DNA of 64,000 nucleotides from Conchocele bisecta (Eukaryota; Mollusca; Bivalvia; Lucinida; Thyasiridae). The stretch's first letter is position 1. Each line of letters begins with the position of its first letter. A program made the position numbers and the translations under genes. Where the stretch lies: contig CM055279.1 of the NCBI GenBank assembly GCA_029237695.1, positions 55,129,530 to 55,193,529 of the forward strand, written 5' to 3'. This document shows positions 9,363 through 51,473 of the stretch, piece after piece. The notes under the pieces were generated by a model. The model worked only from the letters and a program-made list of their open reading frames with translations, did no database searches and was not told the origin of the DNA.

Positions 9363-9475
9363 TGTGACGGACGGAAACACGGAAAGACGGACGGACGGAC
9401 GGACAAGCTGACTCCAGTATACCCCCCCCCCACAACTTCGTTGCGGGGGGGGGGGGGGTATAATGATAGGAAACA
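9363..9475 (+). repeat. GGAC-rich tail and terminal hairpin of the 168-bp array element
   Basis: After the last unit come GACGGACGGACGGACGGAC, a short spacer, then a hairpin: TATACC-C(9) CACAAC-TTC-GTTG C-G(12) TATA at about 9417-9462. This is the end layout seen in Helentron-type repeats; see the finding on shared C-TTC-G hairpins. Confidence 0.65.
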
Positions 9476-10004
9476 TGCACATAAACTTTGAAGCCAATCG
9501 ATTATAAAGAAAAGAGAAACGCGCACACATCTCCTGGACGGAACTTCAAAGTTATTTTACCTTGAACTTGCGCATGGGGAGAGCATGGGTGGGGTGGGGA
9601 ATGAAAATATAGTTTCAAGCCAATCGGTCATACAATATAAGAAGTGAATGGAGAAACGCGCACACATTTACTGGACGCACATTTCCAAGTGGTTTGACCT
9701 AGGGCATGGCGAGAGCACGAGCATATGAAGTTTCAAGCCAATTTGTTGTACAGTAAAGAAGTTATAGGAGAATGGAAAATGCGCACTAATCTACTGGACG
9801 CCAATTTCCAAGTTATTTGATCTTGACCTTGGGCATAGGGAGAACTTGTGTGGGGTGGGGAACGAAACTATGGATGATAATAAACGTGCACATAAAGTTT
9901 CAAGCCAATTGGTTGTACAGTAAAGAAGTTATAGTATAATGGAGAAACACGCACACATTTACTGGCATGGGAGAGCATGGATGGGGTCACTGGGGTGGGG
10001 ATGA
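9476..10004 (+). repeat. Diverged pearl-type units after the 168-bp array
   Basis: Three or so units contain TTTGATCTTGACCTTGGGC, GTGGGGTGGGGAACGAAAC, GCACATAAAGTTTCAAGCC and TACAGTAAAGAAGTTATAG. They are related in order to the units at 8240-8700. Confidence 0.65.
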
Positions 10005-11570
10005 CACGTCGTCCGCTAACCAAATCGTCCGTAAGTCAAATCGTCCGCTATTTTGTCAAATCGTCCGCTATTTTGGTCAATTCGGCCGCTATCTCAAATC
10101 AAAGTACTGAAATTACTGAAATGCATGTATTTTATCTCCACAAAAACTGATCACTTGCGGAACTAGAGACTGAAAGTTGCATATTTTCTCAATCATTGTC
10201 CAGAGGCAAATGTACTGTGCTGGTGCAAACCCATTCCCATCCACACGTTTTCTCTAGAATAAATTACTGTTTGTAACTCCCAGAAAACATTGTACCAAAT
10301 TGGCGGCTAACTGGCCACTGCTACCTAACTGTGAGAACTAAAGATAATAGCTGCTGTATTCATACGCACGAAATGTCATGATTCGTATTTTCCAAAATTT
10401 AACTGATAAACTGAGCCCAAAACTGTGAAAACTATACAGAATAGTATATGTAGAGTTTTAGATACCAAGCAAGACAGACCAAAACGCCATAGGATAAGTT
10501 GGCACAAGGCACTATTTTATTGGTCGTACTCGCCGTTTAGGCGTAGCACGACAATATGGCTGCCCCCATAGATATTTGCGTCACATAATATGCTATCTCT
10601 AAGGAGATAACATATAATCAAAGTACTGAAAGTACTGAAACTAGGTTAGCTCCACAAGATTACTATAACACTTATTATTTATTTATATAATGATGTTTAA
10701 TGGCTTATAATCAGTTAAGTCATTTTAGGTCGGTCAACAGGGTCAAATACCATATTACATGTGTATGGATAGAATGTTAATCCCAAAATCAGAACAGAAT
10801 ATTTACAGAAAATAAATATAGTCAGTGTACATGGCTTCGTGCACTTTACGTGTATTTTGATACTAATCAGAAACAAGTATACAAATAAAGTTTGCCTTTG
10901 TTTGTATATTGACAGATATAACACTTAACACCGGAAATATGTGTGTCACACGTCAGACAGTTCATGCAGATGAGGGGTCCGCCATTGTTGTTGTACTACA
11001 TGCATCAATTTGAAAACACATGGGCGTGTATATGGCATCGCACACCCGAAACTCTACCGATCTAACTTATACTTAGAATCTAACAATTAAAATTGATGTT
11101 CAGCATCAATCAATTATATGTTCAAATAATAAAGACCTATTAACTAAATATTTATGAAGACACCCGCAATTATGATGTCTGGCACCAAGCTACATCAACA
11201 GACTATTAAAACGATTGTTTCACCGTGCATGAAAATATTAAAATTAATATTATTGACCAAACGCCCACACCATCGCACCGTCAACAATAAACCAACATTA
11301 CTATCCTACTCTTTGTGCCTGGGAGAGAATGAGCTGAAAAAGTAGCGGCTGGATCTAATCAACAGCGCAGGAAATAATCCCTCAATACACCGTGGTAGCA
11401 TCGGTGTGTTAGGTATGCTGCGTGGTTTCCGTCGGCTCTGTTTAGTTGATTCTGTTTAGGTGATATGTTTCAGGTGATGATATTTACAAACTATACAAAA
11501 AAATTCAGCTTTGACCTATTTCTTTTCGATCTTCGTCATTTTTTTATCTAATGCTCTTAAATACACAGTA
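10005..11570. other. Intergenic sequence
   Basis: Positions 10008-10095 hold five copies of a TCAAATCGTCCGCTATTTTG-like motif that also appears at 15597-15680 and inverted at 21130-21225. About 10670-10830 is a worn SINE fragment. No gene is recognised. Confidence 0.5.
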
Positions 11571-11599
11571 TGTTAGATGTGGTGCGTGGTGTCCGGCAG

Positions 11600-13378
11600 A
11601 TCATCAGGCAATATAAACAAGAATTCCGCCACGGAAGCGGTATCGCGCCTGCCGAGGCATTTGACCGTGAACATTACAAGTAAATAAATGACCTTGAGAA
11701 TTTGGATGTGGGGGTGTGCGTAATGAAGCATCATCCCTAGACAAACATTGATGTGAAATATTATCAAAGTCTGGCAAGGGGTTAAAGAGATATTGTGAAA
11801 AAACAATAACTTTAACGTATTTCTGTTACAAAACAGGTGAACATTACAAGTAAATAAATGAGCTTGACCATGAGAATTTGGATGTAGGGGTGTGCGTAAT
11901 GAAGCATCATCCGTAGACAAACATTGATGTGAAATATTATCAAAGTCTGGCCAGGGGTTAAATAGATATTGTGAAAAAACAATAACTTTAACGCATTTCT
12001 GTTACAAAACCGGTGAACATTAAAAGTAAATAAATGACCTTGACCTTGAGAATTTGGATGTGGGGGTGTGCGTAATGAAGCAGCATCTCTAGACAAACAT
12101 TGGTGTGAAATATTATCAAAGTCTGGCAAGGGGTTAAAGAGATATTGTGAAAAAACAATAACTTTAACGCATTTCTGTTACAAAACCGGTGAACATTACA
12201 AGAATTCCGCCACGGAAGCGGTGTCGCGCCTGCTGAGGCATTTGACCGTGAACATTACAAGTAAATAAATTACCTTCACCTTCAGAATTTTGATGTGGGG
12301 GTGTGCATAATGAAGCATCATCCGTAGACAAACATTGATGTGAAATAGTATCAATGTCTGGAAAGGGGTTAAAGAGATATTGTGAAAAAACAATAACTTT
12401 AACGCATTTCTGTTACAAATCCGGTGAACATTACAAGTAAATAAATGACCTTGACCTTCAAAATTTGGATGTGGGGGTATGCGTAATGAAGCATCATCCA
12501 TAGACAAACATTGATGTGAAATATTATCAAAGTCTGCAAGGGGTTGGTTTTAAAGAGATATTGTGCAAAAACAATAACTTTAACGCATTTCTGTTACAAA
12601 ACCGGTGAACATAAAAAGTAAATATATGACCTTGACCTTCAGAATTTGGATGTGGGGGTGTGCGTAATGAAGCATCATCCCATGACAAACATTGATATGA
12701 AATATTATCAATGTCTGGCAAGGGGTTAAAGAGATACTGTGAAAAAACAATAACTTTAACGCATTTCTGTCACAAATCCGGTGAACATTACAAGGAAATA
12801 AATGACCTTGACCTTCAAAATTTGGATGTGGGGGTGTGCGTAATGAAGCATCATCCCTAGACAAACATTGATGTGAAATATTATCAATGTCTGGCAAGGG
12901 GTTAAAAAGATATTGTGAAAAAAACAATAACTTTAACGCATTTCTGTTACAAAACCGGTGAACATTACAAGTAAATAAATGACCTTGACCTTGAGAATTT
13001 GGATGTGGGGGTGTGCGTAATGAAGCATCATCCCTAGACAAACATTGATGTGAAATATTATCAAAGTCTGGCAAGGGGTTAAAGAGATATTGTGAAAAAA
13101 CAATAACTTTAACGTATTTGCCTTACAAAAAAACCGGACGACGACGACGACGCGGACGACGACGGAAAAAGCGCCGACTATAGTCGCGCCTCTGCTAAAG
13201 CAGGCGTGAAAAAAAGTAAATAAATGACCTTGACCTTCAGAATTTTGATGTGGGGGTGTGCGTAATGAAGCATCATCCCTAGACAAACATTGATGTGAAA
13301 TATTATCAAAGTCTGGCAAGAGATATTGTGAAAAAACAATAAATTTAACGCATTTGCCTTACAAAAAAGCGGACGACG
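11600..13378 (+). repeat. 176-bp tandem array (about nine units) with head and GAC-rich tails
   Basis: The head ACAAGAATTCCGCCACGGAA at 11607 starts the array and recurs at 12199. TAATGAAGC recurs at 11721, 11897, 12073, 12308, 12484, 12665, 12841, 13019 and 13263, mostly 176 bp apart. Units carry ATGACCTTGACCTT. The first tail (13134-13200) is a GACGACG run followed by GACTATAGTC and GCCTCTGCTAAAGCAGGC inverted repeats, and one more unit follows. It looks like two nested or recombined pearl/HINE-type elements. Minus-strand frames rich in MLHYAHPHIQILK are artefacts. Confidence 0.8.
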
Positions 13379-15576
13379 CGTAGACACTTGGATAACATAA
13401 TTATACCCACTTTTTGTAGACTAGATGGCCGTGGCCTGCATGTCGCGCCTTGGGGCCAGGCATGGACACTAAAAAAATAGATATAGTAGATGGAAAAACT
13501 TTAACCAAAAAACTTTAACCGGACACACGGACGGACATATGCCAAAATGCCGACGATATCGCGCTTTCCGCAAGCAGGTGTGACAATGATGATAAACACC
13601 CATGTGAAGTATCAAGGTATTGGGTGAAGCAGTTGCAGAGATATAGTACACGAAAAAACTTTAACAAAAAAATTCAAAGTAATTTGAACTTGACATAGGG
13701 CACAGGATCGCGCTTTCCGCAAGCAGGTGCGACAATGATGATAAACACCCATGTGAAGTATCAAGGTATTGGGTGAAGCAGTTGCAGAGATATAGTACAC
13801 GAACAAACTTTAACAAGTGAGTGAGTGAGTGAATAGGGTTTAACGTCCGCTTTTCTGACATAGAGGTACAAGCCTCAGGGAGTCTACACGCAGACGGGTC
13901 AACGGGATCGTGTCCCGTATCCACCTGTCCGAGGGGGGTAAATCCCAACTTCAGAACTCAATATTTACAATCAAAATATATATTCAGTCCTGAAATTAGA
14001 ACAACCTGATCTGGTGCCAGGCCCTCGCCACACCAGCATCATTTATCCCATCCCCTAAAAGTAATAGGATTAGCGCTAATCTTACTTTTATATATGGGGC
14101 ATAGCCCGACTCAACTCTCACGTACAAGAAAGCCAAAAATGTACATGAGGGCCAAATCCGGTATAGTGGGTTCCGGAAAGTATGAACCCAATCGTTAAGC
14201 CAGTTTAGTCGCCTTTTACGACAAGCAATGGCTACTGCAGCACTATTCTCAGGATCAGTTGATCCCGCCCCGGTGCCTGCACGGGGCAAACTTTAACAAA
14301 AAAATTCAAAGTAATTTGAACTTGACATAGGGCACAGGATCGCGCTTTCCGCAAGCAGGTGCGACAATGATGATAAACACCCATGTGAAGTATCAAGGTA
14401 TTGGGTGAAGCAGTTGCAGAGATATAGTACACGAAAAAACTTTAACAAAAAAATTCAAAGTAATTTGACCTTGACATGGGCACAGGATCGCGCTTTCCGC
14501 AAGCAGGTGCGACAATGATGATAAACACCATGTGAAGTATCAAGGTATTGGGTGAAGCAGTTGCAGAGATATAGTACACGAAAATACTTTAACAAAAAAA
14601 TTCAAAGTAATTTGACCTTGACATTGGGCACAGGATCGCGCTTTCCGCAAGCAGGTGCGACAATGATGATGAAAAACACCCATGTGAAGTAACAAGGTAT
14701 TGGGTGAAGCAGTTGTAGAGATATAGTACACGAAAAAACTTTAACAAAAAAATTCAAAGTAATTTGACCTTGACATTGGGCACAGGATCGCGCTTTCCGC
14801 AAGCAGGTGCGACAATGATGATAAACACCCATGTGAAGTATCAAGGTAATGGGCGAAGCAGTTGCAGAGACATAGTATAACGAAAAAGTTTTAACCAAAA
14901 AACTTTAAGCAGACGTACGTTAAAAAGTTAACGTTGAAAATGGCTAAGTCAATTACGTAGAAATAATAGGTGAAGGTAAAAAAAATGGTCACATGTTGGA
15001 TAGTTGTATGTGGTAGGCACGCCTTGGTTATGAAGCTGTGAAAGTTTGGTGGTCCTAGGTGGTACAGTACCAAAGAAATGGACTTAAACACGAAAACTTA
15101 ACATTGTAAACGCGAAAACTTAACATTGAAAATGGCTAAGTCGACTGCGCGCGGAAAAAATGGGTGAAGTTAATAAAAAAAAAAGTAACATGTCGGATAG
15201 TGATATGTGGTGGGTACCCCTTGATTATGAAGCTGTGAAAGTTTGGTGGTCCTAGGTGGTACAGTACCAAAGAAATGGACTTAAACACGAAAACTTAACA
15301 TTGTAAACGCGAAAACTTAACATTGAAAATGGCTAAGTCGACTACGCGGAAAAAATGGGTGAAGTTAAAAAATAAGTAACATGTTGGATAGTGATATGTG
15401 GTGGGCACCCCTTGATTATGAAGCTGTGAAAGTTTGGTGGTCCTAGGTGGTACAGTAACAAAGAAATGGACTCAAACACGAAAACTTAACATTGATTGTG
15501 GACGCCCGCCGCCCGCCCGCCCGCCCGGCTTTCGCCAATCCAATAGCCTGGATTTTTTTTCAAAAAACCTGGCTAA
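13379..15576 (+). mobile_element. Composite satellite element A (149-bp plus 195-bp arrays)
   Basis: The layout is: head (CTAGATGGCCGTGGCCTGCA, then a GGACACACGGACGGAC tract and CGCGCTTTCCGCAAGC), a 149-bp array with about six units (13560-14900) interrupted by a SINE, a second array of about 195 bp (14905-15495), a CCCG-rich tract, and the end GCCTGGATTTTTTTT-CAAAAAACC-TGGCTAA. The end can fold (GGATTTTTT with AAAAAACC) just before CTAA, which recalls Helitron-type 3' ends. Usual 5' bases (ACAAGAAACGAGGC) are missing here. Confidence 0.7.
13815..14286 (-). repeat. Full SINE-like insertion with an 11-bp target duplication
   Basis: CAAACTTTAAC flanks the insert at 13804-13814 and 14287-14297. 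On the minus strand the element runs from GCCCCGTGCAGGCACCGGGG through CTTGTCGTAAAAGGCGAC to GACGTTAAACCCTATTCACT with an ACTC-type simple tail, the usual SINE 3' end. It lies inside the 149-bp satellite array, so it is younger than the array. A near-identical copy is at 21513-21990. Confidence 0.85.
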
Positions 15577-15596
15577 TAATATATAAAAACCAATAG

Positions 15597-15680
15597 TCAA
15601 ATTGTCCGCTATTTGGTCAAATCGTCTGCTATATATATTTGGTCAATTCGTCCTCTATTTGGCCAAATTGTCCGCTATTA
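15597..15680 (+). repeat. Short TTTGGTCAAATYGTCYGCT repeats
   Basis: Four units of about 20-25 bp (AAATTGTCCGCTATTTGGTC) abut the Tc1 remnant. The same motif is at 10008-10095 and inverted at 21130-21225. Its role is unknown. Confidence 0.55.
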
Positions 15681-15709
15681 TATTTTTATATATGCATATG
15701 TATATTATA

Positions 15710-16287
15710 CTTAAGGCCAAAAGAATCTTTTCAGTATAGAAATGGTTCAACATTTCGTGAACCAGGAGGTTTAAACACCTGATGTAAAATGTTTTTAGTG
15801 CTGAATCTAATCTGCAACTACTGCACCAAAATATTGGATGCATGTGTTTAAAAGATGACAAAACCCTTCATTTCAAAACCTGCAGTAAAAGAGAACACAA
15901 TTTGGAAACTTTCCTAGTCAATATTGATTATCCAGAGCATAAAAAGGATCACATACAGTGATCACAATGATGAATTGACCGTATTCAGTACCTAGTGTGC
16001 CCACCTTGAGCGTTGATCAATGTTTGGCAACGTCTGCACATTGAATGTAAACATGACCGAATGTCAAGTTGAGGCATTGCTTCCCATTCTCTTTACTGCA
16101 GTTTTTTAAATGAAGGGTGTTGTTGTCTTTCATTGGTTACACAATTTCTAACACATGCATCTAATGTTTTGGTGCAGTAGTTGCAGATTAGATTCACATT
16201 AAAAACATTTGACATCAGGTTTTTAAATATACTTGTTCACGAAATATTAAACCATTTGTATACCGTCAAGTTTTTTTTGGCCTTAAG
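15710..16287. mobile_element. Tc1/mariner deletion derivative with long TIRs
   Basis: CTTAAGGCCAAAAG at the left and GGCCTTAAG at the right are the ends of inverted arms of about 190 bp (15710-15900, 16095-16287). TA dinucleotides flank both ends (15708-15709, 16288-16289). The centre keeps the last 35 codons of a Tc1-like transposase, listed separately. Confidence 0.85.
15985..16092 (-). pseudogene. Tc1-like transposase C-terminal remnant
   Basis: Minus-strand codons read REWEAMPQLDIRSCLHSM, then CRRCQTLINAQGGHTRY and a TGA. The SM-x-RRC and GGHT-x-Y ending is the characteristic C-terminus of Tc1 transposases. All catalytic (DDE) sequence is gone and a stop precedes the segment, so it encodes no enzyme. 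Confidence 0.85.
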
Positions 16288-16344
16288 TATATATATAGCA
16301 ATTGGTTTTACTCTTTCTATTTACCATATTTCTCCTTGAAAGTT

Positions 16345-16720
16345 TTTTTGTTTGTTTGTTTATTAGTGTGTAATGGCCTATCAACAGCTAAGGTCATGTA
16401 AGGCCGGGCAAACGGGTTCGATCCTGAAATTAGAATAACCTGACCTGGTGCCAGGTCCATACCTACCAACCAATCAACTTGGCCCCTTCCCCTAGAAAAT
16501 AGGATTACGAATTATCGTTAATACTCACTAAGGGGTATAACAACCAAATTCAACTGACAAATACAAAATGTGCCAATGATGTATGTGAGGGCCAAAACCA
16601 GGTCTTCCAGTCGGGAATTTCCGGGTAAAGGATATTGAAACCTCCGGATCGTTAAACAATTCCCATGACGATGCTCCCAACCTGCCACCCACCCCTCCTT
16701 GATAAAGTCATGCCAGACAG
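16345..16720 (-). repeat. SINE-like repeat, GGTGCCAGG family
   Basis: Written on the plus strand: TTTGTTTGTTTGTTTATTAG tail, TAATGGCCTATCAACAGC, CAAACGGGTTCGATCC, CCTGACCTGGTGCCAGGTCC, GAGGGCCAAAACCAGGTC and GATGCTCCCAACCTGCC. The AAAC-type simple tail shows that the element runs on the minus strand. Copies cluster at 16-20 kb and 28 kb. Confidence 0.7.
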
Positions 16721-17045: not shown

Positions 17046-17184
17046 ACATTAGGGTACTTATGTGGCTAGCCCCACAGGGTTATGGACTTGTTAAAGGATA
17101 GGGTTGGTTACAATTAGCCACCTAAAAAATCGTTTTATGTGGCTAATATTTAACATGTGATAAGCCACATAAGTACCCTAATGT
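17046..17184. mobile_element. MITE with TTAGGGTACTTATGTGGCT ends
   Basis: Inverted ends of about 20 bp (ATTAGGGTACTTATGTGGCT) enclose an AT-rich centre with repeated AGCCACATAAAA. GTCC/GGAC microsatellite lies on both sides. Two further copies (41334-41440, 63541-63700) have the same setting. Confidence 0.75.
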
Positions 17185-24258: not shown

Positions 24259-24261
24259 ACA

Positions 24262-30093: not shown

Positions 30094-30309
30094 AAATTCC
30101 TCCTCAATATTGAGCAGGTGGTCGCGACAGTCGTACACGTCCTCCTCCGCTCCACTGATCACAATGACGTCTGGGTCGTCGTTGGCGCGTGGGAATCGCA
30201 GGTCCACCTTGAAGTCGTCCATGATCTTACGTACCCCGCGACCGCGGGCGCCGATGATTCGCGGGTGGATACGCCGGTCAATCTTCACGTCCAGGTGCAG
30301 CATTTCCTC
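30094..30309 (-). CDS. HDLBP: Vigilin exon encoding KH domain 14
   Basis: The exon is 216 bp, 72 codons, phase 0-0. It encodes EEMLHLDVKIDRRIHPRIIG, then ARGRGVRKIMDDFKVDLRFP, and ends HLLNIEEEF. GARG is the GxxG loop. The acceptor is TTCTGTCTCCAG and the donor GTAAGT. Local GC content is clearly higher than in the surrounding introns, as expected for conserved coding sequence. The next exon begins in phase 0 with LQDVIDEQ, as expected after the last KH domain. Confidence 0.95.
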
Positions 30310-30619
30310 CTGGAGACAGAAATATAAACTACACTTGTTAGTTGTTACTTCAAACTCTCTTAAGGACCCGTTCTATACCTGATCATCCTTTGATTCAAAG
30401 ATCAGAGCTCCAGATAAGTTTGTATCTAAAGAGTTTTATACCCCCATATTTCAAATTCAATGCTTCTTTTACTTTTACAAATATATTATTGATTTTCGTC
30501 TTTATTAAATAGGGAACAAATGATAAAAAATAAAACAAATTTAACAAGAAATGACTCTGTCGAACGCGGATGCTACCTGCAGCATATTTGAGAAACTGTG
30601 ACAAAGTGGTTAACCGAAA

Positions 30620-30706
30620 AGTTTGACGGACAGACACACGGACGGACGGACGGTCTAAACACTATATGCCACCCGTTTCTTCGAAACCCGGTGGCATAAA
30701 AATTCA
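30620..30706 (+). repeat. GGAC run followed by a C-TTC-G hairpin (isolated repeat end)
   Basis: CACACGGACGGACGGACGG precedes ATGCCACCCGTTTC-TTC-GAAACCCGGTGGCAT (30667-30697), an almost perfect hairpin. It appears to be the 3' end of a pearl/HINE-type element whose body is worn. Confidence 0.65.
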
Positions 30707-33091: not shown

Positions 33092-33337
33092 ATCTGTTTA
33101 TAAGAGTCCTTATAACGCTGGCAAATTTTTTTGGTGGTAGTTCTGTTAATTTGTCGTTGTTGATGTGTTTCGACATTTTCAACAGCCGACAACATCCGGG
33201 GAATTACAAAATAAAATGATTAAATTATTATCAACAGACGCTTGAAGTTGCTCTGCGAACCATATTACAGAAGCTTCTAGATGATCTAGACTACGGAAAT
33301 GATAGGACGCTAAATAACGGAAAGGAGGCAAAAATAA

Positions 33338-36300
33338 ACAAGAAACGAGGCAAAGCCACGAAGGCCAGGTTTTTTCCAAGCATAGACACTTGCATAACAT
33401 AATTATACCCATTTTTTGTAGACTAGATGGCCGTGGCCTGCATGTCGCGCCTTGGGGCGAGGCATGGACACTAAAAAAATAGATATAGTAGATGGAAAAA
33501 CTAACCAAAAAACTTTAACCGGACACACGGACGAACGGAACGGACGTATGCCAAAATGCCGACGATATCGCGCTTTCCGCAAGCAGTGTGTCAATGATGA
33601 TAAACACCCATGTGAAGTATCAAGGTATTGGGTGAAGCAGTTGCAGATATAGTACACGAAAAAAACTTTAACAAAAAAATTCAAAGTAATTTGAACTGAC
33701 ATAGGGCACAGGATCGCGCTTTCCGCAAGCAGGTGCGACAATGATGATAAACACCCATGTGAAGTATCAAGGTATTGGGTGAAGCAGTTGCAGAGATATA
33801 GTACACAAAAAAACTTTAAGAAAAAAAAAATTCAAAGTAATTTGACCTTGACATTGGGCACAGGATCGCGCTTTCCGCAAGCAGGTGCAACAATGATGAT
33901 AAACACCCATGTGAAGTATCAAGGTATTGGGTGAAGCAGTTGCAGAGATATAGTACACGAAAAAACTTTAACAAAAAAATTCAAAGTAATTTGACCTTGA
34001 CATTGGGCACAGGATCGCGCTTTCCGCAAGCAGGTGCGACAATGATGATAAACACCCATGTGAAGTATCAAGGTATTGGGTGAAGCAGTTGCAGAGATAT
34101 AGTACACGAAAAAACTTTAACAAAAAAAAATCAAATGTAATTTGACCTTGACATTGGGCACAGGATCGCGCTTTCCGCAAGCAGGTGCGACAATGGTGAT
34201 AAACACCATGTGAAGTATCAAGGTATTGGGTGAAGCAGTTGCAGAGATATAGTACACGAAAAAACTTTTAACAAAAAAATTCAAAGTAATTTGACCTTGA
34301 CATTGGGCACAGGATCGCGCTTTCCGCAAGCAGGTGCGACAATGATGATAAACACCCATGTGAAGTATCAAGGTATTGGGTGAAGCAGTTGCAGAGATAT
34401 AGTACACGAAAAAACTTTAACAAAAAAAATCAAAGTAATTTGACCTTGACATTGGGCACAGGATCGCGCTTTCCGCAAGCAGGTGCGACAATGATGATAA
34501 ACACCCATGTGAAGTATCAAGGTATTGGGTGAAGCAGTTGCAGAGATATAGTACACGAAAAAACTTTTAACAAAAAAATTCAAAGTAATTTGACCTTGAC
34601 ATTGGGCACAGGATCGCGCTTTCCGCAAGCAGGTGCGACAATGATGATAAACACCTATGTGAAGTATCAAGGTATTGGGTGAAGAAGTTGCAGAGATATA
34701 GTACACGAAAAAACTTTAACAAAAAAATTCAAAGTAATTTGACCTTGACATTGGGCACAGGATCGCGCTTTCCGCAAGCAGGTGCAACAATGATGATAAA
34801 CAACCAAGTGAAGTATCAAGGTATTGGGTGAAGCAGTTGCAGAGATATAGTATACGAAAAAACTTTAACAAAAAAATTCAAAGTAATTTGACCTTGACAT
34901 TGGGCACAGGGGCCGCACGGTTGGAGGTTAGAATGAAAATATGGATGATGATAAACACCCATGTGAAGTTTCAAGGTAATGGGCGAAGCAGTTGCAGAGA
35001 TATAGTATAACGAAAAACTTTTAATGAAAAAACTTTAACGTCTCGTACGTTAAAAAGTTAACGTTGAAAATGGCTAAGTCAATTACGTAGAAATAATAGG
35101 AGAAGGTAAAAAAATGGTCACATGTTGGATAGTTGTATGTGGTAGGCACCCCTTGGTTATGAAGCTGTGAAAGTTTGGTGGTCCTAGGTGGTACAGTACC
35201 AAAGAAATGGACTTAAACACGAAAACTTAACATTGTAAACGCGAAAACTTAACATTGAAAATGGCTAAGTCGACTGCGCGGAAAAAATGGGTGAAGTTAA
35301 AAAAAAAGTAACATGTTGGATAGTGATATGTGGTGGGTACCCCTTGATTATGAAGCTGTGAAAGTTTGGTGGTCCTAGGTGGTACAGTACCAAAGAAATG
35401 GACTTAAACACGAAAACTTAACATTGTAAACGCGAAAACTTAACATTGAAAATGGCTAAGTCGACTACGCGGAAAAAATGGGTCAAGTTAAAAAAAAAGT
35501 AACATGTTGGATAGTGATATGTGGTGGGCACCCCTTGATTATGAAGCTGTGAAAGTTTGGTGGTCCTAGGTGGTACAGTAACAAAGAAATGGACTCAAAC
35601 ACGAAAACTTAACATTGATTGTGGACGCCGCCCGCCCGCCGCCCGCCCGCCCGGCTTTCGCCAATCCAATAGCCTGGATTTTTTTCCAAAAAACCTGGCT
35701 AAAAATGGTCACATGTTGGATAGTTTTATGTGGTAGGCACCCCTTGGTTATGAAGCTGTGAAAGTTTGGTGTTCCTAGGTGGTACAGTACCAAAGAAATG
35801 GACTCAAATACGAAAACTTAACATTGTAAACGCGAAAACTTAACATTGAAAATGGCTAAGTCGACTGCGCGGAAAAAATGGGTCAAGTTAAAAAAAAAGT
35901 AACATGTTGGATAGTGATATGTGGTGGGCACCCCTTGATTATGAAGCTGTGAAAGTTTGGTGGTCCTAGGTGGTACAGTACCAAAGAAATGGACTTAAAC
36001 ACGAAAACTTAACATTGTAAACGCGAAAACTTAACATTGAAAATGGCTAAGTCGACTACGGGGAAAACATGGGTCAAGTTAAAAAAAAAAGTAACATGTT
36101 GGATAGTGATATGTGGTGGGCACCATTTGATTATGAAGCTGTGAAAGTTTGGTGGTCCTAGGTGGTACAGTAACAAAGAAATGGACTCAAACACGAAAAC
36201 TTAACATTGAAAATGGCTAAGTCGACTACGCGGAAAAAATGGGTCAAGTTAAAAAAAAAAGTAACATGTTGGATAGTGATATGTGGTGGGCACCCTTTGA

Positions 36301-36487
36301 TTATGAAGCTGTGAAAGTTTGGTGGTCCTAGGTGGTACAGTAACAAAGAAACGGACTCAAACACGAAAACTTAACATTGATTGTGGACGCCGCCCGCCCG
36401 CCCGGCGCCCGCCGCCCGCCGCCCGCCGCCCGCCCGGCTTTCGCCAATCCAATAGCCTGGATTTTTTTTCTCAAAAAACCTGGCTAA
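33338..36487 (+). mobile_element. Composite satellite element B
   Basis: Starts ACAAGAAACGAGGCAAAGCC, has the CTAGATGGCCGTGGCCTGCA head, nine 149-bp units (33570-34860), one ancestral-type unit (GGGCACAGGGGCCGCACGG), then 195-bp-type units (35040-35615), an end (GCCTGGATTTTTTTC and TGGCTAA) at about 35702, and further 195-bp-type units with a second end at 36487. AAAAAT lies on both sides (33330-33335, 36486-36491), which may be a target duplication. All units run on the plus strand. Confidence 0.75.
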
Positions 36488-40888: not shown

Positions 40889-41109
40889 GTCTAAACAAGA
40901 AATGAGGCAAAGCCACGAAGGCCAGGTTTTTTCCAAGCATAGACACTTGGATAACATAATTATACCCACTTTTTGTAGACTAGATGGCCGTGGCCTGCAT
41001 GTCGCGCCTTGGGGCGAGGCATGGACACTAAAGAAATAGATATAGCTAGTAGATGGAAAAACTTTAACGAAAAAACTTCGGACGGACGGACGGACGGACG
41101 GACGGACGG

Positions 41110-41272
41110 ACGTTCAAACATTTGGGAGTTATGAGGCACCGCTATATAAAAGATCAAAGGGTTAGCTCTTAAATATCAAAGAGTTAGCTCCTAAATTTAT
41201 GAGGCACCGACAATATCAAAGAGATCAAAGGTACTAACCCTTACCCTAAGCTCCTAAACCCCCGATGTTGGC
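41110..41272. mobile_element. Unnamed insert inside the GGAC tract
   Basis: CATTTGGGAGTTATGAGGCACC begins it and AAACCCCCGATGTT ends it, imperfectly inverted. It is flanked by GGACGTTC and GGCCCGGAC, the same flanks as the TTAGGG-ended MITE beside it. It contains GGGTTAGCTC and AGAGTTAGCTC repeats. Confidence 0.45.
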
Positions 41273-41333
41273 CCGGACGGACGGACGGACGGACGGGACG
41301 GACGAGCGGACGGACGGACGGACGGACGTTCTT

Positions 41334-41440
41334 ACAAATGGATACTTATGTGGTTTATCACATGTTAAATATTAGCCACATAAAACGATTTTTAGCCACA
41401 TAAAAGGATTTTTTAGGTGGCTAATTGTACCCTAATGTGT
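41334..41440. mobile_element. MITE with TTAGGGTACTTATGTGGCT ends, worn copy
   Basis: GATACTTATGTGG and TACCCTAATGTG remain of the ends; the interior TTAGCCACATAAAACGATTT matches the other copies. GGAC runs lie on both sides. Confidence 0.65.
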
Positions 41441-43135
41441 GCCCGGACGGACGGACGGACGGACGTATGCCAAAATGCCGCCGATATCGCGCTTTCCGCA
41501 AGCGGGTGCGACAATGATGATAAACACCCATGTGAAGTAATTTAACCTTGACATTGGGCACAGGGGCCGCACGGTTGGGGGGTAGAATGAAAATATGGAT
41601 GATGATAAACACCCATGTGAAGTTTCAAGGTAATGGGCGAAGCAGTTGCAGAGATATAGTATAACGAAAAACTTTTAATGAAAAAACTTTAACCAGACGT
41701 ACGTTAAAAAGTTAACGTTGAAAATGGCTAAGTCAATTACGTAGAAATAATAGGTGAAGGTAAAAAAAATGGTCACATGTTGGATAGTTGTATGTGGTAG
41801 GCACCCCTTGGTTATGAAGCTGTGAAAGTTTGGTGGTCCTAGGTGGTACAGTACCAAAGAAATGGACTTAAACACGAAAACTTAACATTGTAAACGCGAA
41901 AACTTAACATTGAAAATGGCTAAGTCGACTGCGCGGAAAAAATGGGTCAAGTTAAAAAAAAAAGTAACATGTTGGATAGTAATATGTAGTGGGCACCCCT
42001 TGATTATGAAGCTGTGAAAGTTTGGTGGTCCTGGGTGGTACAGTAACAAAGATATGGACTCAAACACGAAAACTTAACATTGATTGTGGACGGCCGCCCG
42101 CCCGCCCGCCCGCCCGCCCGCCCGCCCGCCCTTCGCCAATTCAATAGCCTGGATTTTTTTTTAAAAAACCTGGCTAATAAGAGCTAGATTGCATGTTGGT
42201 GTGTTTTATTGAAGGAATGCTGAAAAGTGCAGATCCTGTTCAAACTGTGCGGATGCACATGCTGAACTGGATCTACACTGGTCGCAAACGCCCTATAAGC
42301 CCGGTGTTGTGTTTGGCTTATTGTACCTTCTCAGTCGCAGTCGCAATTAATCGTTCCGATAAGTACAGCTGATGTTGACACAATCTTCAAACAACACCCC
42401 ACCCCACCCCCTGTGGCAATTAGAGCGACTTTCCCACTGCTATCACCCCGGGCATTTGGCTTTCCTTAATTGATTGACCCCATGTACAGCATTGTTTCAT
42501 TGTAAGTGGACAATGGCCTACAAGAATGACGTTATGACAGTTTGACCAGCATAGCACCAGACAGCTCTGACAAGTGTCTACTCAATTGCCCGTCTGATTT
42601 TGCATTATATATAAGTACTATCGGGGAAAACATAGATTGTAACCAGACGATGTAAATATAAATACATGGTATCCTACAGCTGTTGAAAATTGCACAGTAT
42701 GTCCATTTTGCCACCACTGTCACATTTCAGTATGTAGTTTGTAACTAGGTCATTCTTATATTTTTACAGTACAGCGAGGGTCCCATATATTTATATCAGC
42801 GCTCTAATAATCTAGAGTTCTAAGTAGTCTGTTGAACTATTACGTGTAATAATCGTATTATGCATACATTTCGCAAGTACTACTGATACGTCGTATACCC
42901 ACGTGACCGCAAAGGGAAATAACTGTGGTAAGCAAAATAAAGGGAAGATAGTCATGCAGTGACTGCTGGGAAAACTGGATGTCCGGAATATGAAATTCGT
43001 AAAAGAACGGCACATACTGGTCGGATTACTGTGCAATTTGTTTTATTTGATATATAAATGATGAATACATAAGCGTATCGCGAAAACAGAATCTTGTTAT
43101 ATCTCCATTAAATCCAACTTTGTGTCTAAACTTAC

Positions 43136-43737: not shown

Positions 43738-44465
43738 TTAAAGGTACATCCCACTCAGTAGGCACAAAATGTTTATAATAGGAACTAAATGTATAATTGT
43801 GTCACTATTCCACCAGTTCTAAAAATTACGTGTGTCTGCTATACAGATATAATAATTTAGTAATATTTATTTTGATGATAGCGACTCGATGTGGTATCAG
43901 GCTAGTTTCATATGCAAATGAAACATGGTATTTTTTAATTATTTATACTAATTAAATGTGTAAGCTGAAAAAATTAAAATTTTTGACAGATTATAAAGTA
44001 TGATCATTGCGAGACTCACTGGAGTGCGTTGTGTCCTTGAGCAAGACACTGTATCCACACTGCTTCAGTACACCCAGATGTTAATGGGTACCGGCTAATT
44101 ACCGGGAACCTCGATTGTATTTGATTGTACATGTATGTACATGTACTTATGAATAAAAATATGATCTTATCAATTAAGGGAAAACACTACGAAAAGGGCC
44201 GAAGAAACTGAAAAGTTTATATAAGCAAATGCTTATATCCGGTTTCTAACACATAATGAACTGAATGAATTGTTTCCAATGGAAAACAAATAAAAAATGT
44301 ATGATCAGTGCACATCAAAAGATAAATACAGAGAAAAAATAATTTGATATCAGTGTGGAAATTTACGTCCGATATAAAATGTAATGCCAATCAATAAGTG
44401 GTGCATAGCGTGCACTCGTAATTTTTAGAACTTGTGGAATAGTGACACAATTATACACTGCTCTA
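43738..44465. mobile_element. TTAA-type element, left part, with an insert
   Basis: TTAA then AGGTACATCCCACTCAGTAG matches the TIR at 5491; the body follows the 5.5-6.0 kb element. Positions 44006-44280 are foreign, with GTGTCCTTGAGCAAGACACT, a motif common in invertebrate interspersed repeats. The body resumes to about 44465, but the right TIR is missing. Confidence 0.65.
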
Positions 44466-45090
44466 ATAGATGCTCATCCCCAGTTTTGACGTTGAAAATT
44501 ACAGTTTATTGGACTGATTTTCACAAATTAATGCCTCTAATAAACGCCCAGTACAAAATTGCAACAAAATCGGAGCTAAATGTCCAACTAGATTTTTTTC
44601 TTTCCAGTATTTTGAAGGCAAATTCCTTGAAAATCTGGAAAAAAATCTACTTTTACTTTCAAATGCGGAAGCGAAATTCGACTGTTTCCGGTGTCACAGT
44701 AAATTCATCATCGGCAGTAGCTATTTGCACGGAGGCCAAAAATAATCGCACCGATACGGGGTGAAACGTCCACGGGCCGAAACGTCCGTAGGCGTAAATT
44801 TGATCACCATTAAAGGTACATGCCCACGCAGTAGGCTCAAAATGTTCTTTATAGGAATTAAATAAGTGTATAATTATGTCCCTATTCCACCAGTTCTAAA
44901 AATTACGAGTGCCCGCTATACAAATATAATCATTTATTAATTATCAATTTACTGTTAGCTATGCGCGGCGGTAACAGTCTATTTTGATAATGTGCGGGGA
45001 TGACGACTTTCACATCACAGCTTGCGGTGCGCATGCGCAGTATACTACGCGCGCCAGTAGGCTTCCCAATATGTAAACAAGAATATCAAC

Positions 45091-45302
45091 ATGTCGAAAC
45101 GTCCAGGACGGAAATTGTATGAAACAGCGTCGGCCAAAAGAAAGGCTAAATGTCTGAGGGACAGGCAGTACATAGAGAGAGAGTGGTTAATATTGGCGAC
45201 CAGATCACCAAATGGAAAGAGTTACGTGCAGATTTAGATTTGGACTCGAATAGAAATTTTTCTTCTCAACTTCCGATACTTCACTGCGCATGTCAAAGAT
45301 AA
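45091..45302 (+). pseudogene. Decayed ORF start inside the TTAA element
   Basis: MSKRPGRKLYETASAKRKAK and CLRDRQYIERE are followed, after a frameshift at about 45182, by VNIGDQITKWKELRADLDLD. A basic N-terminus followed by an INLG-x-x-x-x-RW-x-x-LK-like block recalls N-terminal segments of transposon-related invertebrate proteins. Function is not assigned. Confidence 0.35.
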
Positions 45303-45317
45303 TAGTACTTAGAAAGG

Positions 45318-46968
45318 CAGGGCTGTACAAATTGATTGTTTAGCCACTTGTCCTGGACAAGTGACTTGACAAAAGTGACTTGCCCCGACTTGTCCTGGAA
45401 ATTATAATCCATGTGTGCATAATACATGCACTTTAGTTGCTATAAAAATCTTGGCAATAACATATATTACTAGTAACGGGAACCCTGGCAATCAGGAAAG
45501 ATCGATTGATTGGTGTTTAATGGTCTATCTATAATTTCGAGCGTATATTCCAGAATTTTCGGTGTAAAAACATCGACGTTTTGTGAATTAAATTACGGAG
45601 TCTACTCATTTGACCGTCTCGAAAATGAAATCACGTCTATATTTTACAATATTTAATGTCTATCAGTATGTTCGCGGAATGGTAAATAATAAACTTTTTG
45701 AAATTTCAGTTTTTTTTTGTTGGCAACAGCTGTTAATTCGCTAATTACACTGCAGCTCCATTATAACGCGATCGCGTATAGCGCGATCTCCATTATAACG
45801 CGGGTCTCTCGTGGATCCCAAAAAAAATCTTAAAAAAAATAGAGAAGAAAAAGGAAAACAAAGAAAAAAAATCAAAAAACATCGTCGGACGTCGTAGTCA
45901 TCGTGTAATTAGCTGATTCGTGATTTCAATAAGTTTATTAAAAGAACGACATTCAAAGTACATGAAATAATTATTATTAGTATGTTAGCAAATGTAATAC
46001 CTTTAATCAGGTAATCATGTTAATATGTATACAGTGCGACCCCCCCTATTGCACGGAAGTCCGGCGACATACGACATTCCGTGTTGCTTATCCGAACCGT
46101 GCAATATCCATGCCAGGGGATATATGAATTCCAAATCCAGATGCGATTACACCCGACACATATTACACAGACGAGATTTGTATGATGCTTTGTGCAAAAA
46201 ACAGATACACCCAGCTGTGTGTACAGGTGTTTATTGTATGACCTCATTCAGCACAAGGCTGTAAACTGTGTGACCTTTAGGCTATGTTTCGAAATGTTAC
46301 TGATTGGTCAACACGCCTTTTGATGCGCCACAGACGTCGCGAACGTGCAACTTCTTTCATCATCACATCACGGGGCAATCATGCAGTAACCCATTTCATG
46401 CTGAGGATACGCTTATGTTTGCGGACAAATATTTTCCTTCTATGCACTCAGAAGTATATGCCGCGACCACCATTTAATCCGTCTCGTCGAGACGGTTCAA
46501 ATGAGTGGTCACATCGTATACTTTCATTGAGAAATAACAAAAATAATTTTTTTTTGTTTAATAATTTCATAATCGTAAATGTGTATTCCGAAAGGAATGG
46601 ATTAAAAAAAAACTCTGAATCAAATTCAGAGTTCATGCGGAATTGTCGGTGGGATTATGCTTTCAAATTCGAATAAATTAATCTAATCAGGGTCACAGCT
46701 AGTATATCACTTTTCTTGCTATATACATAGTATAGCAGCTTCTGTGTAAGTGTGTATCGCCACGGGGAAGCCGACACACGCCCGAGGCGTTGTCGATCGA
46801 TGAAATGTTACAATTTAGGATTAGTCTAGTGAAGAAAACAGGCTTGTGGCGGGACGTTTCAACGGAAAATAGTGACTTGCCCGGGACTAACTTTCAGCAT
46901 AGAGCCACATGCCCGAGACCAAAACGGACTTGTCCCGGGCGTCGGGCGTGCCGATTTGTACAGCCCTG
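45318..46968. mobile_element. hAT-like insert with CAGGGCTGTACAAAT ends
   Basis: CAGGGCTGTACAAAT and ATTTGTACAGCCCTG are exact inverted ends and AAAGG abuts both. Repeated CACTTGTCCTGG / GACTTGTCCCGGG blocks lie near both ends. The interior includes 45751-45805, where GATCGCGTATAGCGCGATC is palindromic, and the 130-codon frame at 46284-46676, which I do not recognise. Confidence 0.6.
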
Positions 46969-47225
46969 AAAGGTACAAAACTCCCATTTGCCACCATTGT
47001 AATGAAAAGCCACGCGATATAGACAAATTGGAACTCACCTATACAATGCATTACAGCGTGTCGAAACCGCTGCTTGGGGTGGGTTTTCGGCATAGATTTT
47101 ACAGTTGCTAATACATTAACATAAATCTCAAAGATTTTGAGTATAAACTGCACTAAAAACGCGTTTCACTAACCTAAATTCGCTTTTAAAATCATACACG
47201 TTCACTTACGCATTAGCAATGACTA

Positions 47226-47362
47226 TTAGCCGCCATCTTTGAAAATAGTTCAATCACGTGCACGCAGTGGTTTGGTTGCTTACTGGAGACTGACGTCATT
47301 TCCATTAGCCAACCAAATCAGTGCGTGTCACGTGATTCAATATTTTCAAAGATGGCGGCTAA
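47226..47362. mobile_element. MITE whose TIRs contain YY1-type and CACGTG motifs
   Basis: TTAGCCGCCATCTTTGAAAA and its complement form 35-bp inverted ends (47226-47260, 47327-47362). GCCGCCATCTTTG fits the YY1 consensus, and CACGTG (an E-box) closes each arm. Length 137 bp. Confidence 0.75.
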
Positions 47363-48252
47363 CATTCATTTTTAATCAGGAAGCGAAGGTGCTAAAATGC
47401 GGTACGAAGCGCAAAAATTACTAAAACGCAGACTTTTTATAAACTACGGCCTATAATTTTCATGCGTCCTGCGGACTCGCAGATCATTATTTTTTGCGTC
47501 CACGGCAAAAAGTATGTGTCCTAGACGCAGGACGCAGGGGTAACTGAATCTCTGGGGGATTATTGAAACTATCGACCCGGGACTTTTATTGTCACAGCGG
47601 GTAGGCGGCGTGATTTTAGTGCATCGCGTAATGATGGGATGAAAATTTGTGGATTATTTATTTTTTTTACAGAGAAATTATCAATCGACGGAATAGGGCA
47701 TTTTTCAATTTTTAATCGATGTCTGAGGCAAATAATCGCCGAAGGGCAATTTTGGTGAGCGCCAGCGCAAACCTAGCCATTTATTACCATTTTACCGCCT
47801 GTACCATAACGACCAATAGTGGGACGAAACATCTTGGTCTGAAATTTCCATAAACTGACAGACAGTACAATCAAGTCCGGTATGTTATGTTTTTTTGTTG
47901 TTTTTTTTCGAGTAAATTTTTTTTTTTTTCATTTTCCCTTTGCTGAATAACACTTGCATCTATTAAACGCCCACCCATGACTTCAACGCCCACCCAGGAC
48001 TTCAGAGCCAGTGGTGATTCTAATAGACACCCGGGCATCTATTAGAATCTTTACGGTATTTAAAGAACATTTTGTTTCTACCGAGTGGGCATGTACCTTT
48101 AAGTCAAACTACTGATAACTCAAAAAGTTAATTTTTGGTCCCAAGAACATGTTTTGCTACATAATAACTGTTGTTAACTCAAAGTTTTGTTAACTCAAAG
48201 TATTTTCCTGAGTCCCCTGGACTTTGAGTAAAAGAGTATAGACTGTATTTGG

Positions 48253-48311
48253 TATCAAGTTTGGATGATAGCTCTGGTCTACCCGTATACACAGCTCGTC
48301 GCTCTCAACAT
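48253..48311 (-). pseudogene. Decayed copy of the KH13 exon 5' end (copy 2)
   Basis: Minus-strand sequence starts ATGTTG, like the KH13 exon, and after a one-base deletion reads SDELCIRVDQSYHPNLI, close to the true exon. Following plus-strand bases (GGGAAAAATGTTTAG) match the intron beside the real exon. The frameshift and the loss of all downstream domain sequence make it non-functional. It lies 4.9 kb upstream of the true exon in the same intron. Confidence 0.7.
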
Positions 48312-48707
48312 CTTAACATCAAGCGAAGATTGGTGGGAAAAATGTTTAGAGTATTTAGGTTAGTTAGGTTGAGCTCCAATCAATCTGCCTGATTTCAAGT
48401 ACAAACTTCAGAATGTTTTTATAATCAAGTCTCTTGGGTATATTGTCAATGTAACAGTTCTTCAACAACTAACCCGAAATTTCTGTCTGTAACACAGGGC
48501 GAATTACAGCCAGAACGCAAACGCATCAACTTTCTGTCAATTCTTGGGAGTTATGCATTTAAAAATCAATCAAATATCACAATAACCTTCATACTACATG
48601 TTAATGAAACATTTATCTCTTCAAAACAACACGTACCTATCTCTTAAACATATTTATTCTACATTTTTCCATTACCATATCAACATCATTTTTTTCTTTT
48701 AATGATA

Positions 48708-49807
48708 CAGTAGAGGATCGATTTCTCGAACCGGCAACGGACTCGAATAAAAGTTCGAGTCAGGCGTAGTTCGAGGGAAAGAAAGAAAATGTGACAGTTA
48801 AAATTCAATTCAATATTTAAAGGCGAATTTTGTTCAAATTAATTCATTATCGTGGTCATCTTGACGTGGAATTAATGCAGAGCTGCCAACCCCATATCGG
48901 TCACATGAGGAACATGGAGTGAAAAAGGGGCTATTTTCAGGAATGCCACATATGTTTTCCGGAACACAAATCAGTACTCACTGTAAAGTAAATTTTTAGA
49001 GCCTTGGCCCTCGTCTCGGCCACCATGACTAACCGAAAAATCACAATTACACTGCTTGCAAGACGCAAATTCATCACCGCGCTTTGACAGGACCAAATGG
49101 GGCCATGTCTCGCTGTAATCAGTGATGAACATATGTGTTCTCCTAACTTCTTTCGATTAAAAATACCCAAATTCGTTGGCTGCACGCTTTGGAGCAGACA
49201 TTTTATGAATTTACGTGATGAATAAATCAATATCGCTGAGCGCTTGAAACTACTATTACTACACAAGAATTGAAATGGTAAGCGCCTAGGCGAGTATGAT
49301 TACGGGTAAATAAAAAAATAGGATTTATTGGCAGAATTGTGAAATGACATTATTATTTCCAGATATTCCCGCGCAGATTTTTTAAAAAATCGTACTTTTT
49401 AATTTGTGTCCGTACTTCCGTATTTCTAACGTATTTTCCGGAACAAATACGGAAAAATCGTAACAGTTGGCAGCTCTGTTAATGCTGTTTAATTTTTAAA
49501 TTCGTGATTTAATGTCACCACCTGTCAAGCGAAACAAATCAAAGAGACCTCCAATCGTGATATTCTCACCTCGTTAGGCAAACAGATCAGCTGGCGACAG
49601 ACTTACCTGTACGAGCTAACAATAACACTTTGCGTTGATTGACTGATCAAGGAACCGTGACTTCGGTTCGAGAGTTTTTTGTCGTAGTTCGAATTTTACG
49701 TAAAAAAATATATGATTTATATAGGGAAATTTGTCGGGACCACAGGACGATGTCGAATTTTCCGGAGTGTTCGACAGAGACCTGTTCGAGAGATCGATCT
49801 TCTACTG
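48708..49807. mobile_element. pogo/Tc-like element with TA target
   Basis: CAGTAGAGGATCGATTTCTC and the complement of GAGAGATCGATCTTCTACTG are inverted ends flanked by TA (48706-48707, 49808-49809). It has repeated GTTCGAG motifs and no transposase. A second element (48878-49478) is nested in it. Confidence 0.8.
48878..49478. mobile_element. Nested element with CAGAGCTGCCAAC ends
   Basis: The 13-bp inverted ends CAGAGCTGCCAAC / GTTGGCAGCTCTG are flanked by TTAATG (48872-48877 and 49479-49484), a 6-bp duplication. The 109-codon minus frame inside (FKRSAILIYSSRKFIKCLL) is not recognised. Confidence 0.75.
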
Positions 49808-50109
49808 TATTAACATAGTTGCTCCCTTTTAATTTCACCGTCTTTTATTTGTATTAATTATCATTAGTAATTGGGGATTACGTGAATTAAAACATATATT
49901 TATTGTTGTACACATAAGAATAATAGTTATTTTTTTACTTAAGAAATAATTTATACCCAATTACAACTGTAATTATCGTTGACCATTTGCTGAATTATTT
50001 AGCTATGCATATACAGTTAAACTTGCACAAGCGACCACGTGCATTAAGCGACTTTTGTCTTATGCGACCACTTTCAATTCCCCCCGACCATGTGGTTCCT
50101 GAGAAAAAT

Positions 50110-51473
50110 ACGTTAAAAATCTTGAATAAATGGACCTTTTGGTGGCCATCATGGATGACATAATCATCTGATTCCGACAAATATTGCACCAGAGCAATCG
50201 CCTCATCGATACCTTCAATTTGATATAGGACATGAGCATATTCGGTCAAAAATAAAATTTGACCCCAATTTGACCCCACGGGCCACACCCAGTTTTGACA
50301 CCGGGGTCACCATTTTCACAACTTTGAAAGAGCATTGTAAATCGATCATTCCTAAGTTTAGTCGAAATCCGGTTAGCGGTTCATGAGAAGAAGATTTTTT
50401 AAGACTTTATACTATTTTTAGACGGCGGCCATCTTGGATTAGCGATGACCTCCATTTTAACAAATCTGAAAAGGCTTCACCCATGGACCATAACTTTTAA
50501 GTTTGGCTACCATGGGCCAAGCGGTTCATGTGAAGAAGAATTTTGAAATCTCTAATAAAAGAACGACCTTTTGACATTTCGGCGGCCATCTTGGATGACA
50601 TAACAATCCGATTTCGACAAAAAATGTACCAGCGTGATCACCTCATTGATACCTTTGATTTGATATATAACATGACCATATTCGGTCAAAAATAAAATTT
50701 GACCCCACGGGCCACGCCCATTGTTGTTGACCCTGGGGGACACCATTTTAACAACTTTGAAAGAGCATTGTACATCGATCATTCCTACCAAGTTTCGTCG
50801 AAATCCGGCTAGCGGTTCAGGAGAAGATTTTTTTAAGAATTTATGCTATTTTTATACGGCGGCCATCTTGGATTAACGATGACCTCCATTTTAACAAATC
50901 TGAAAAGGCTTCAACCATGGACCATAACTTTTAAGTTTGGCTACCAAGGGCCAAGCGGTTCATGTGAAGAGGAATTTTGAAATCTCTAATAAAAGAACGA
51001 CCTTTTGGCGGCCATCTTGGATGACATAACAATCCGATTTCATCAAAAAATGCACCAGAGTGATCGCCTCATTGATACCTTAAATTTGATATATGACATG
51101 ACCATATATGGTCAAAAATAAAATTTGACCCCAATTTGACCCCACGGGCCACGCCCATTTTTGACCCCAGGGTCACCATTTTAACAACTTTGAAAGAGCA
51201 TTGTACATCGATCATTCCTACCATGTTTTGTCGAAATCCGGTTGGCGGTTCTTGAGAAGAAGATTTTTGAAGAATTTGTGCTATTTTTAGACAGCGGCCA
51301 TCTTGGATTACGTAATGACGTCATTTTAACAATTTTGTAATCCCCCTACCTAAGGACCATGACCATGAAGTTTGGTGACTATAGGCCCAACGGTTACCGA
51401 GGAGAAGACGACGGACGACGGACACATTGCGGTAACAATAGCTCACATGAGCTTCGCTCAGGTGAGCTAAAAA
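50110..51473 (+). repeat. About 430-bp repeat array with GGCGGCCATCTTGGAT and a hairpin end
   Basis: GGCCATC(A/T)TGGATGACATAA recurs at about 50141, 50582 and 51008. Units contain CCAATTTGACCCCACGGGCC, AGAGCATTGTACATCGATCA and YY1-like GGCGGCCATCTTGG. The end has GACGACGGACGACGGAC and a hairpin AGCTCACATGAGC-TTC-GCTCAGGTGAGCT (51439-51470). Confidence 0.75.

Follow-up and report, generated by a model that had tools for sequence, protein, structure and literature searches.

The window analysed here is a stretch of 64,000 nucleotides of the bivalve Conchocele bisecta (G000:C15:55129530-55193529 of a 1.89-Gb assembly), and our subject is a group of repeat families in it that have a hairpin and a tetranucleotide microsatellite at one end. 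A preliminary description of the window placed three such hairpins near 9417, 30667 and 51439, and all three are present there. On the plus strand, hairpin 1 reads C10-ACAAC-TTC-GTTGC-G14 with its core at 9422-9454, the run of twelve G's given earlier being a miscount. Hairpin 2 lies at 30665-30698 and hairpin 3 at 51439-51469, and in all three cases 13-15 bases separate the GGAC tract from the stem on the plus strand. We regard each of these hairpins, with high confidence, as the 5' terminus of a minus-strand non-autonomous Helentron (HINE, DINE-1-like). The elements, named H1, H2 and H3, and their parts, including subterminal inverted repeats (subTIRs) and the inverted repeats (IRs) that adjoin them, are located as follows.

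8487..9463, minus strand: element H1, a HINE of 977 bp with a body of 168-bp tandem repeats; 5' end TTATACC at 9463, 3' end CTAGTT at 8487 (called by structure, from one copy)
9418..9462, minus strand: H1 5' hairpin, TATACCC.. subTIR plus IR, with minus-strand loop C-GAA-G (from the sequence and five family copies)
9386..9404, minus strand: H1 GTCC microsatellite (GGAC on the plus strand)
8719..9340, no strand assigned: H1 body, 168-bp tandem repeats
8519..8597, minus strand: H1 3' subTIR (on the plus strand ATATCCC, then an expanded C-run)
8501..8516, minus strand: H1 3' palindrome GTAAGC-CCCC-GCTTAC
30543..30699, minus strand: element H2, a complete minimal HINE of ~157 bp (aligned end to end with the copies in L026 and L036, and with that in L030, which has a body inserted)
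30665..30698, minus strand: H2 5' hairpin, with minus-strand loop C-GAA-G
30570..30577, minus strand: H2 3' subTIR, GGTAGCAT in the window and GGTGGCAT in L026, L036, L030 and L045
50088..51469, minus strand: element H3, 5' end and body of 434-bp tandem repeats (four copies with a common start; 3' ends known from L023 and L049)
51439..51469, minus strand: H3 5' hairpin TAGCTCACCTGAGC-GAA-GCTCATGTGAGCTA
51407..51423, minus strand: H3 GTCC/GTCGTCC microsatellite

These ends are very abundant. A genome-wide search for the hairpin with its microsatellite gave matches far above chance for three stem classes, namely 4,964, 4,869 and 6,994 forward matches of the hairpin-plus-GTCC patterns against 0, 0 and 55 for the same patterns read backwards. 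Reverse-strand matches numbered 10,603, 12,497 and 15,673 (controls 0, 0 and 66), counts that are inflated because several starts within one microsatellite were each counted. The motif GGACGGACGGAC alone has 100,573 + 104,384 overlapping starts in the genome, against 2,152 + 2,037 for its control. All genome counts are of exact patterns and are therefore lower bounds for the families.

Element ends and polarity

Multi-copy comparison was carried out for H3, H2, a composite family J (described below), H1-type copies and others. It confirmed that the hairpin coincides with copy boundaries and that different repeat families have one end module in common, as had been supposed. In a sample of 20 arbitrary 10-kb stretches plus the window, four H3 copies match the strict hairpin pattern, and their pairwise similarity starts at most 5-6 T-rich bases from the hairpin, between unrelated flanks. 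The four H2 copies compared are sharp at both ends, with similarity stopping at each; three of them are the same ~157-bp element running from the hairpin to CTTGTT, and L030, the fourth, has these ends on either side of an extra body. Flanks are also unrelated among the five copies of the H1 family. On contig C1, 18 short stretches representing nine families have, by eye, unrelated sequence before the hairpin. For the 14 of them that fall into four groups, pairwise identity is 0.26-0.31 upstream and 0.86-1.00 over the first 14 nt of the element; as the search patterns fix the first letters of the element, the informative part is the absence of upstream similarity.

Empty sites define the ends further. 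The paralogous Rep-gene loci C6 (filled) and C13 (empty) differ by one insertion: the filled site consists of GACCATTAGCATTTTT, the insert (AGCCAGG ... GTTTCTTGTT) and ACAATCTGAAACTG, and the empty site reads GACCATTAGCATTTTTACAATCTGAAACTG. The insert is 317 bp long, begins at its own hairpin and finishes at CTTGTT; the target is a T-run, there is no target-site duplication (TSD), and the cut position is ambiguous within the T-run. A second empty site is repeat-derived, the H3 copy in L023 lying inside a tandem repeat whose neighbouring units represent the empty form. Insertion into TT or a T-run without duplication is thus supported by one paralogous and one repeat-derived empty site.

Read on the minus strand, the order of an element is T-run, 5' subTIR with complementary IR (the hairpin), GTCC microsatellite, variable body (in many cases made of tandem repeats), 3' subTIR, 3' palindrome and CTWGTT. 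The 5' subTIR with its adjoining complementary IR is present in H1, H2, H3, J and families of the three genome-wide stem classes, and a GTCY-type microsatellite follows the 5' end as GTCC arrays in H1, H2 and H3. At the other end, the 3' subTIR matches the inverted 5' subTIR at 11 of 12 letters in both H3 (L023) and J and at 9 of 10 in H2 (L026), and that of H1 is visible beside an expanded G-run, without a clean score. A simple subTIR scan of the window listed 30570 with two mismatches, which is the H2 3' subTIR, and none for H3. Apart from the H1 palindrome listed above, 3' palindromes are found in H3 (AGGGCCATCATGGCCCT in L023, AGGCCCATTTGGGCCT in L049) and in J, and the complete H3 3' end is composed of AGGTGAGCGA, the palindrome and CTTGTT. 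The termini are CTAGTT or CTTGTT in H1, H2, H3, J and one class-C copy (L027). The second palindrome and 3' subTIR at the opposite end, together with the exact empty-site ends, identify the hairpin as the 5' end. It is important to note that 5' and 3' are arbitrary labels in elements without reading frames, as a passage of PMC2374699 points out, and that the published labels rest on later autonomous partners, according to a passage of PMC4067079; it is by these labels, fixed by autonomous partners, that the hairpins here count as the 5' ends of minus-strand elements.

The preliminary description was right that the elements are of the Helentron kind, and it took the hairpin for their 3' terminator in rolling-circle transposition, a module with one fixed triloop, TTC, that is shared or swapped among families. 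The hairpin does sit exactly at the element end, and no autonomous copy here proves polarity independently. However, the opposite end of H1, H2, H3 and J has a 3' subTIR and a second palindrome, and the 3' palindromes have different loops. The GGAC run that had been noticed beside the hairpin is real, but it is the GTCC/GTCY microsatellite which, in the relevant passages of PMC7492417 and PMC2374699, lies next to the 5' end of DINE-1 and HINEs and so marks the 5' side. In addition, the hairpin loops differ by family and are of GA type on the element strand, as detailed below. We consider a 3' terminator very unlikely. Exchange of a module among unrelated element families finds no support here; the likeness is accounted for by a common ancestry of Helentron 5' ends whose bodies were replaced. 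A cut-and-paste transposase acting on fold-back or miniature inverted-repeat elements would agree with the thousands of copies and with inverted repeats that lie at both ends or close to them, but the empty site without TSD, the internal position of the 3' inverted repeat (in H2, H3 and J ~37-41 nt away from the terminus) and element ends that are not mirror images make this explanation scarcely credible.

The interpretation as HINE 5' ends was followed to possible autonomous Rep/Hel partners with the same end, for which the preliminary description had suggested a search. Rep domains do exist in the genome, with 77 matches to Helitron_like_N, but at the six Rep loci examined upstream (C3, C15, C7, C6 and C13 with 5-8 kb, C8 with 3.5 kb) no autonomous element with one of these 5' ends was established in the upstream sequence. 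The hairpins upstream of Rep in L043, L045 and L049 belong to HINEs that look nested. At C8 (L042, G000:C8:69750372-69751953), the Rep domain is preceded, at a distance of 1,189 bp, by an H3 5' hairpin of the same orientation. This is the order predicted for a 5' end, and the hairpin may belong to the Rep-encoding element. The H3 repeat body runs straight into the Rep-coding stretch with no H3 3' end between them, so that the copy may be truncated and nested; the locus is either an autonomous H3 partner, a chimera or a truncated nested copy. Two other features were seen upstream of Rep domains: a frame of 1,098 aa (L041, 2-3295, minus strand) in which a Pfam scan gave two Herpes_teg_N-like stretches and DUF6570, and, in L038 (1-1300), many near-identical 126-base repeats that precede a Rep domain, itself part of a 2,046-aa open frame.

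The outcome at the six loci and, at C8, the H3 body that abuts Rep with no H3 3' end count against our interpretation of the hairpins as HINE 5' ends. So do the weak 3' palindrome of H2, with a 4-bp stem, and the window copy of H3, for which a 3' end, including the 3' subTIR, was not found within the window.

Elsewhere in the genome, G000:C1:482384-495229 holds eight H3 5' ends, all on the same strand and spaced 1.3-2.7 kb apart, with a spacing of ~1.77 kb in four of seven cases. This array consists of whole elements placed head to tail, the pattern that one would expect of a rolling-circle concatemer or of a newborn satellite.

The loop on the element strand

The fixed TTC triloop of the preliminary description holds for the plus strand of the three window hairpins, whereas loops vary across families. 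On the element (minus) strand, all three have the loop C-GAA-G. Among 54 unique listed hairpins of one class, 27 have C-GAA-G, 9 C-GAAA-G, 5 C-GATA-G, 2 C-GAAT-G, 1 C-GAGA-G and 10 another loop; a GNA or GNNA loop closed by C-G thus occurs in 42 of the 54. The TTTTATGCC...GGCATA class has 11,927 genome-wide matches (control 60), and on its T-run strand C-GAA-G was counted 5,873 times (control 0) versus 28 times for C-TTC-G (control 1), with C-GANA-G reaching 1,220 (control 0). As the gap limits vary slightly between the loop patterns, the resulting shares (~49% C-GAA-G, ~10% C-GANA-G) are approximate. For the H3 class, the 25 unique sites listed comprise, by eye, 19 with GAA, 4 with AAA, 1 with GAC and 1 that is complex.

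Eight of the 11 hairpins picked by eye as 5' ends in the 20 sample stretches have C-GAA-G, C-GATA-G or C-GAAT-G, and three do not. In the scanned sequence, 18 hairpins are linked to a microsatellite, 10 with such a loop in the element orientation, none in the opposite one and 8 in neither; among unlinked hairpins, 16 of 144 have such a loop on either strand, and one of the 16 (L024) is itself a HINE. Predicted DNA energies are better for the element strand by 0.0-2.7 kcal/mol in 28 of 30 listed sequences and worse in 2.

According to passages of PMC4686876, a paper by the discoverers of these structures, DNA mini-hairpins are extraordinarily stable when a GNA or GNNA loop is combined with two or more G-C pairs, and GCGAAGC melts at 78 C and is nuclease-resistant; related passages on such mini-hairpins are found in PMC11101458 and PMC10527192. 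The second G-C pair required for the cGNAg/cGNNAg mini-hairpin is present in H3 and B and absent in H2, and H3 has exactly GCGAAGC. Because the complementary strand has no such loop, the bias points to the element strand acting as single-stranded DNA (ssDNA), a role that a peeling-off of the 5' end in rolling-circle transposition would lead one to expect. A UUCG tetraloop at the RNA level was also considered; its C-G closure would need CTTCGG, which among the sample hairpins was noticed in L020 only.

Many copies descend from one founder, so families and not copies are the units of evidence. In our own grouping, in which some families are based on 1-3 listed copies, eight follow the loop pattern strictly (H2, H3, B, D, E, F, G and K) and C comes close to it (GAAT); H1 is of mixed type, N gives the impression of decay, and J, M and the hairpins of L011 and L013 depart from the pattern. 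The misfits weigh against a loop rule. Family M has the hairpin TTATACCCACTTTTTT-GGG-AAAAAATGGG and variants, and family J has T-GAGA-A; both have T-A-closed loops, and families with A/T-rich stems are without C-GAA-G. Most listed H1-type copies have a two-base GA loop (CAAC-GA-GTTG), so the rule is not universal.

We tentatively propose that the 5' ends carry a selected ssDNA device, that is, an ultrastable C-GNA-G/C-GNNA-G mini-hairpin, formed on the transferred strand only, which might be read by Rep or shield the freed end, and which might be kept while the stem, the microsatellite length and the body change. Our reading of the hairpins as HINE 5' ends would have a Rep/helicase supplied in trans nick at the T|T 5' end and peel off the element strand; the freed 5' arm would then fold into an ultrastable mini-hairpin that marks or protects that end, and the 3' palindrome would signal the stop. 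The 5' subTIR could also switch between the hairpin and pairing with the 3' subTIR, joining the two ends. A single literature search found no work that joins Helitrons with GNA/GNNA loops among the 15 papers listed of its 17 matches.

We give an even chance to the alternative that the bias was simply inherited from a small number of founder hairpins and that hairpin stability was not selected for, which competes with the proposed device and leaves the assignment to HINEs untouched. H2 alone makes up much of the counted class, deviations such as C-AAA-G and T-GAA-G resemble what the ordinary decay of CpG produces, J and M are without the loop, and the loop is met at the frequency given above among hairpins outside these ends. 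Less readily explained by inheritance is that the stems vary among the eight strictly fitting families while the loop stays C-GAA-G, C-GAAA-G or C-GATA-G.

Composite family J and other features of the window

The composite family had been credited with a hairpin of the same end module. That hairpin, CGCGCTTTCCGCAAGCG, sits within the tandem-repeat monomers of arrays at 14288, 33567 and 61181 and was rejected as a J terminus; the TTAGCCACCTAAAA hairpin was rejected as well, being part of a repeated unit nested within an H2 element (L030). As the C6 insert belongs to family J, the true ends of J in the window are the AATAGCCTGG...CCTGGCTAA hairpins and the AACAAGAAACGAGG ends. Five such hairpins (5') are present, and the 3' ends are AACAAGAAACGAGG at 33337, 60370 and 60950, AACAAGAAATGAGG at 40894 and a shortened one at 63354. 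The J microsatellite is GGGC in place of GTCC.

33337..36487, minus strand: J, 3' end at 33337 and 5' hairpin at 36454-36487, with a second, internal 5' hairpin at 35671-35702
40894..42177, minus strand: J, from the 3' end to the 5' hairpin (42146-42177)
60370..63326, minus strand: J, 3' ends at 60370 and 60950, 5' hairpin at 63295-63326
63354 (start): J, one more 3' end, in shortened form
15545..15576, minus strand: J 5' hairpin of a copy with a tandem-repeat body from ~13378

Directly after a J 5' hairpin (window 15520-15576, L043), the element strand has a second mini-hairpin, TTGGC-GAAA-GCC, with a C-GAAA-G loop. The microsatellite region of the H2 element in L030 contains two copies of the unit that bears its own TTAGCCACCTAAAA hairpin and GTCC run, and this unit is also found in the window near 41300 and 63600; it appears that parts of one element can turn into the tandem repeats of another. 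In the arrays at 8719, 11667, 31243 and 33567 the repeat monomers have a TGACCTTGA-like motif in common, which we take to resemble a nuclear-receptor half-site. Exon-like stretches lie on the minus strand at 30130-30310, 52030-52250 and 58800-59020 and may correspond to KH-domain (vigilin-type) coding sequence; if so, some elements of the window would sit in introns of that gene.

Known systems and significance

The layout described here has close counterparts. For Cg_HINE of the oyster Crassostrea gigas, passages of PMC7492417 describe a 5' subTIR with IR, a GTCY/GTCC/GTCK microsatellite, satellite-like tandem repeats, a 3' subTIR with palindrome, a TT target without TSD, and related flanks around unrelated repeats. 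The elements of C. bisecta agree in layout, microsatellite type, tandem repeats, TT target, lack of TSD and related flanks with unrelated repeats; they differ in their sequences, in having a repeat-free ~157-bp form, and in the element-strand loop bias, of which those passages make no mention. In the Drosophila elements DINE-1/INE-1, as presented in Table 1 and passages of PMC2374699, most subTIRs are (T)ATACCC.., and a partial IR beside the 5' subTIR, a GTCY microsatellite, central repeats, a 3' stem-loop and TT insertion are found. Our elements have the same layout, and the H1 subTIR begins with (T)ATACCC as in most Drosophila species; DINE-1/INE-1 has its own 90-bp conserved core and is compared here without that core.

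The Helentrons and HINEs of mite, mosquito and flies have, in passages of PMC4067079, T strings at the borders, palindromic subTIRs or subTIR with IR, a 3' stem-loop and a preference for TT. T-rich borders, subTIR with IR, 3' palindrome and TT insertion are thus shared with them, whereas autonomous partners are known there and none was established here at the six Rep loci. A canonical Helitron (5' TC, 3' CTRR, insertion between A and T) was rejected as a candidate. Such elements, to judge from the same passages, are likewise of the rolling-circle kind, and the CTAG or CTTG (CTWG) before T here resembles CTRR and fits in part; however, the 5' ends here are T/TA and not TC, the target is a T-run, and subTIRs are present.

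Judging from these passages, the end layout is already published for oysters and flies, and the loop rule is a fresh lead. The present analysis reverses the polarity first assigned to a very abundant end module and provides exact ends for several element families. It also accounts for the recurrence of a single tetranucleotide microsatellite, and of hairpins that resemble each other, next to satellite-like repeats that are not related. Should the oriented loop prove to hold in other phyla, it would offer a direct handle on how the Helentron Rep finds and handles the 5' end, for which we met no tested mechanism in the sections of the Helentron literature cited here, and it would supply a simple sequence rule for recognizing 5' ends in genome annotation.

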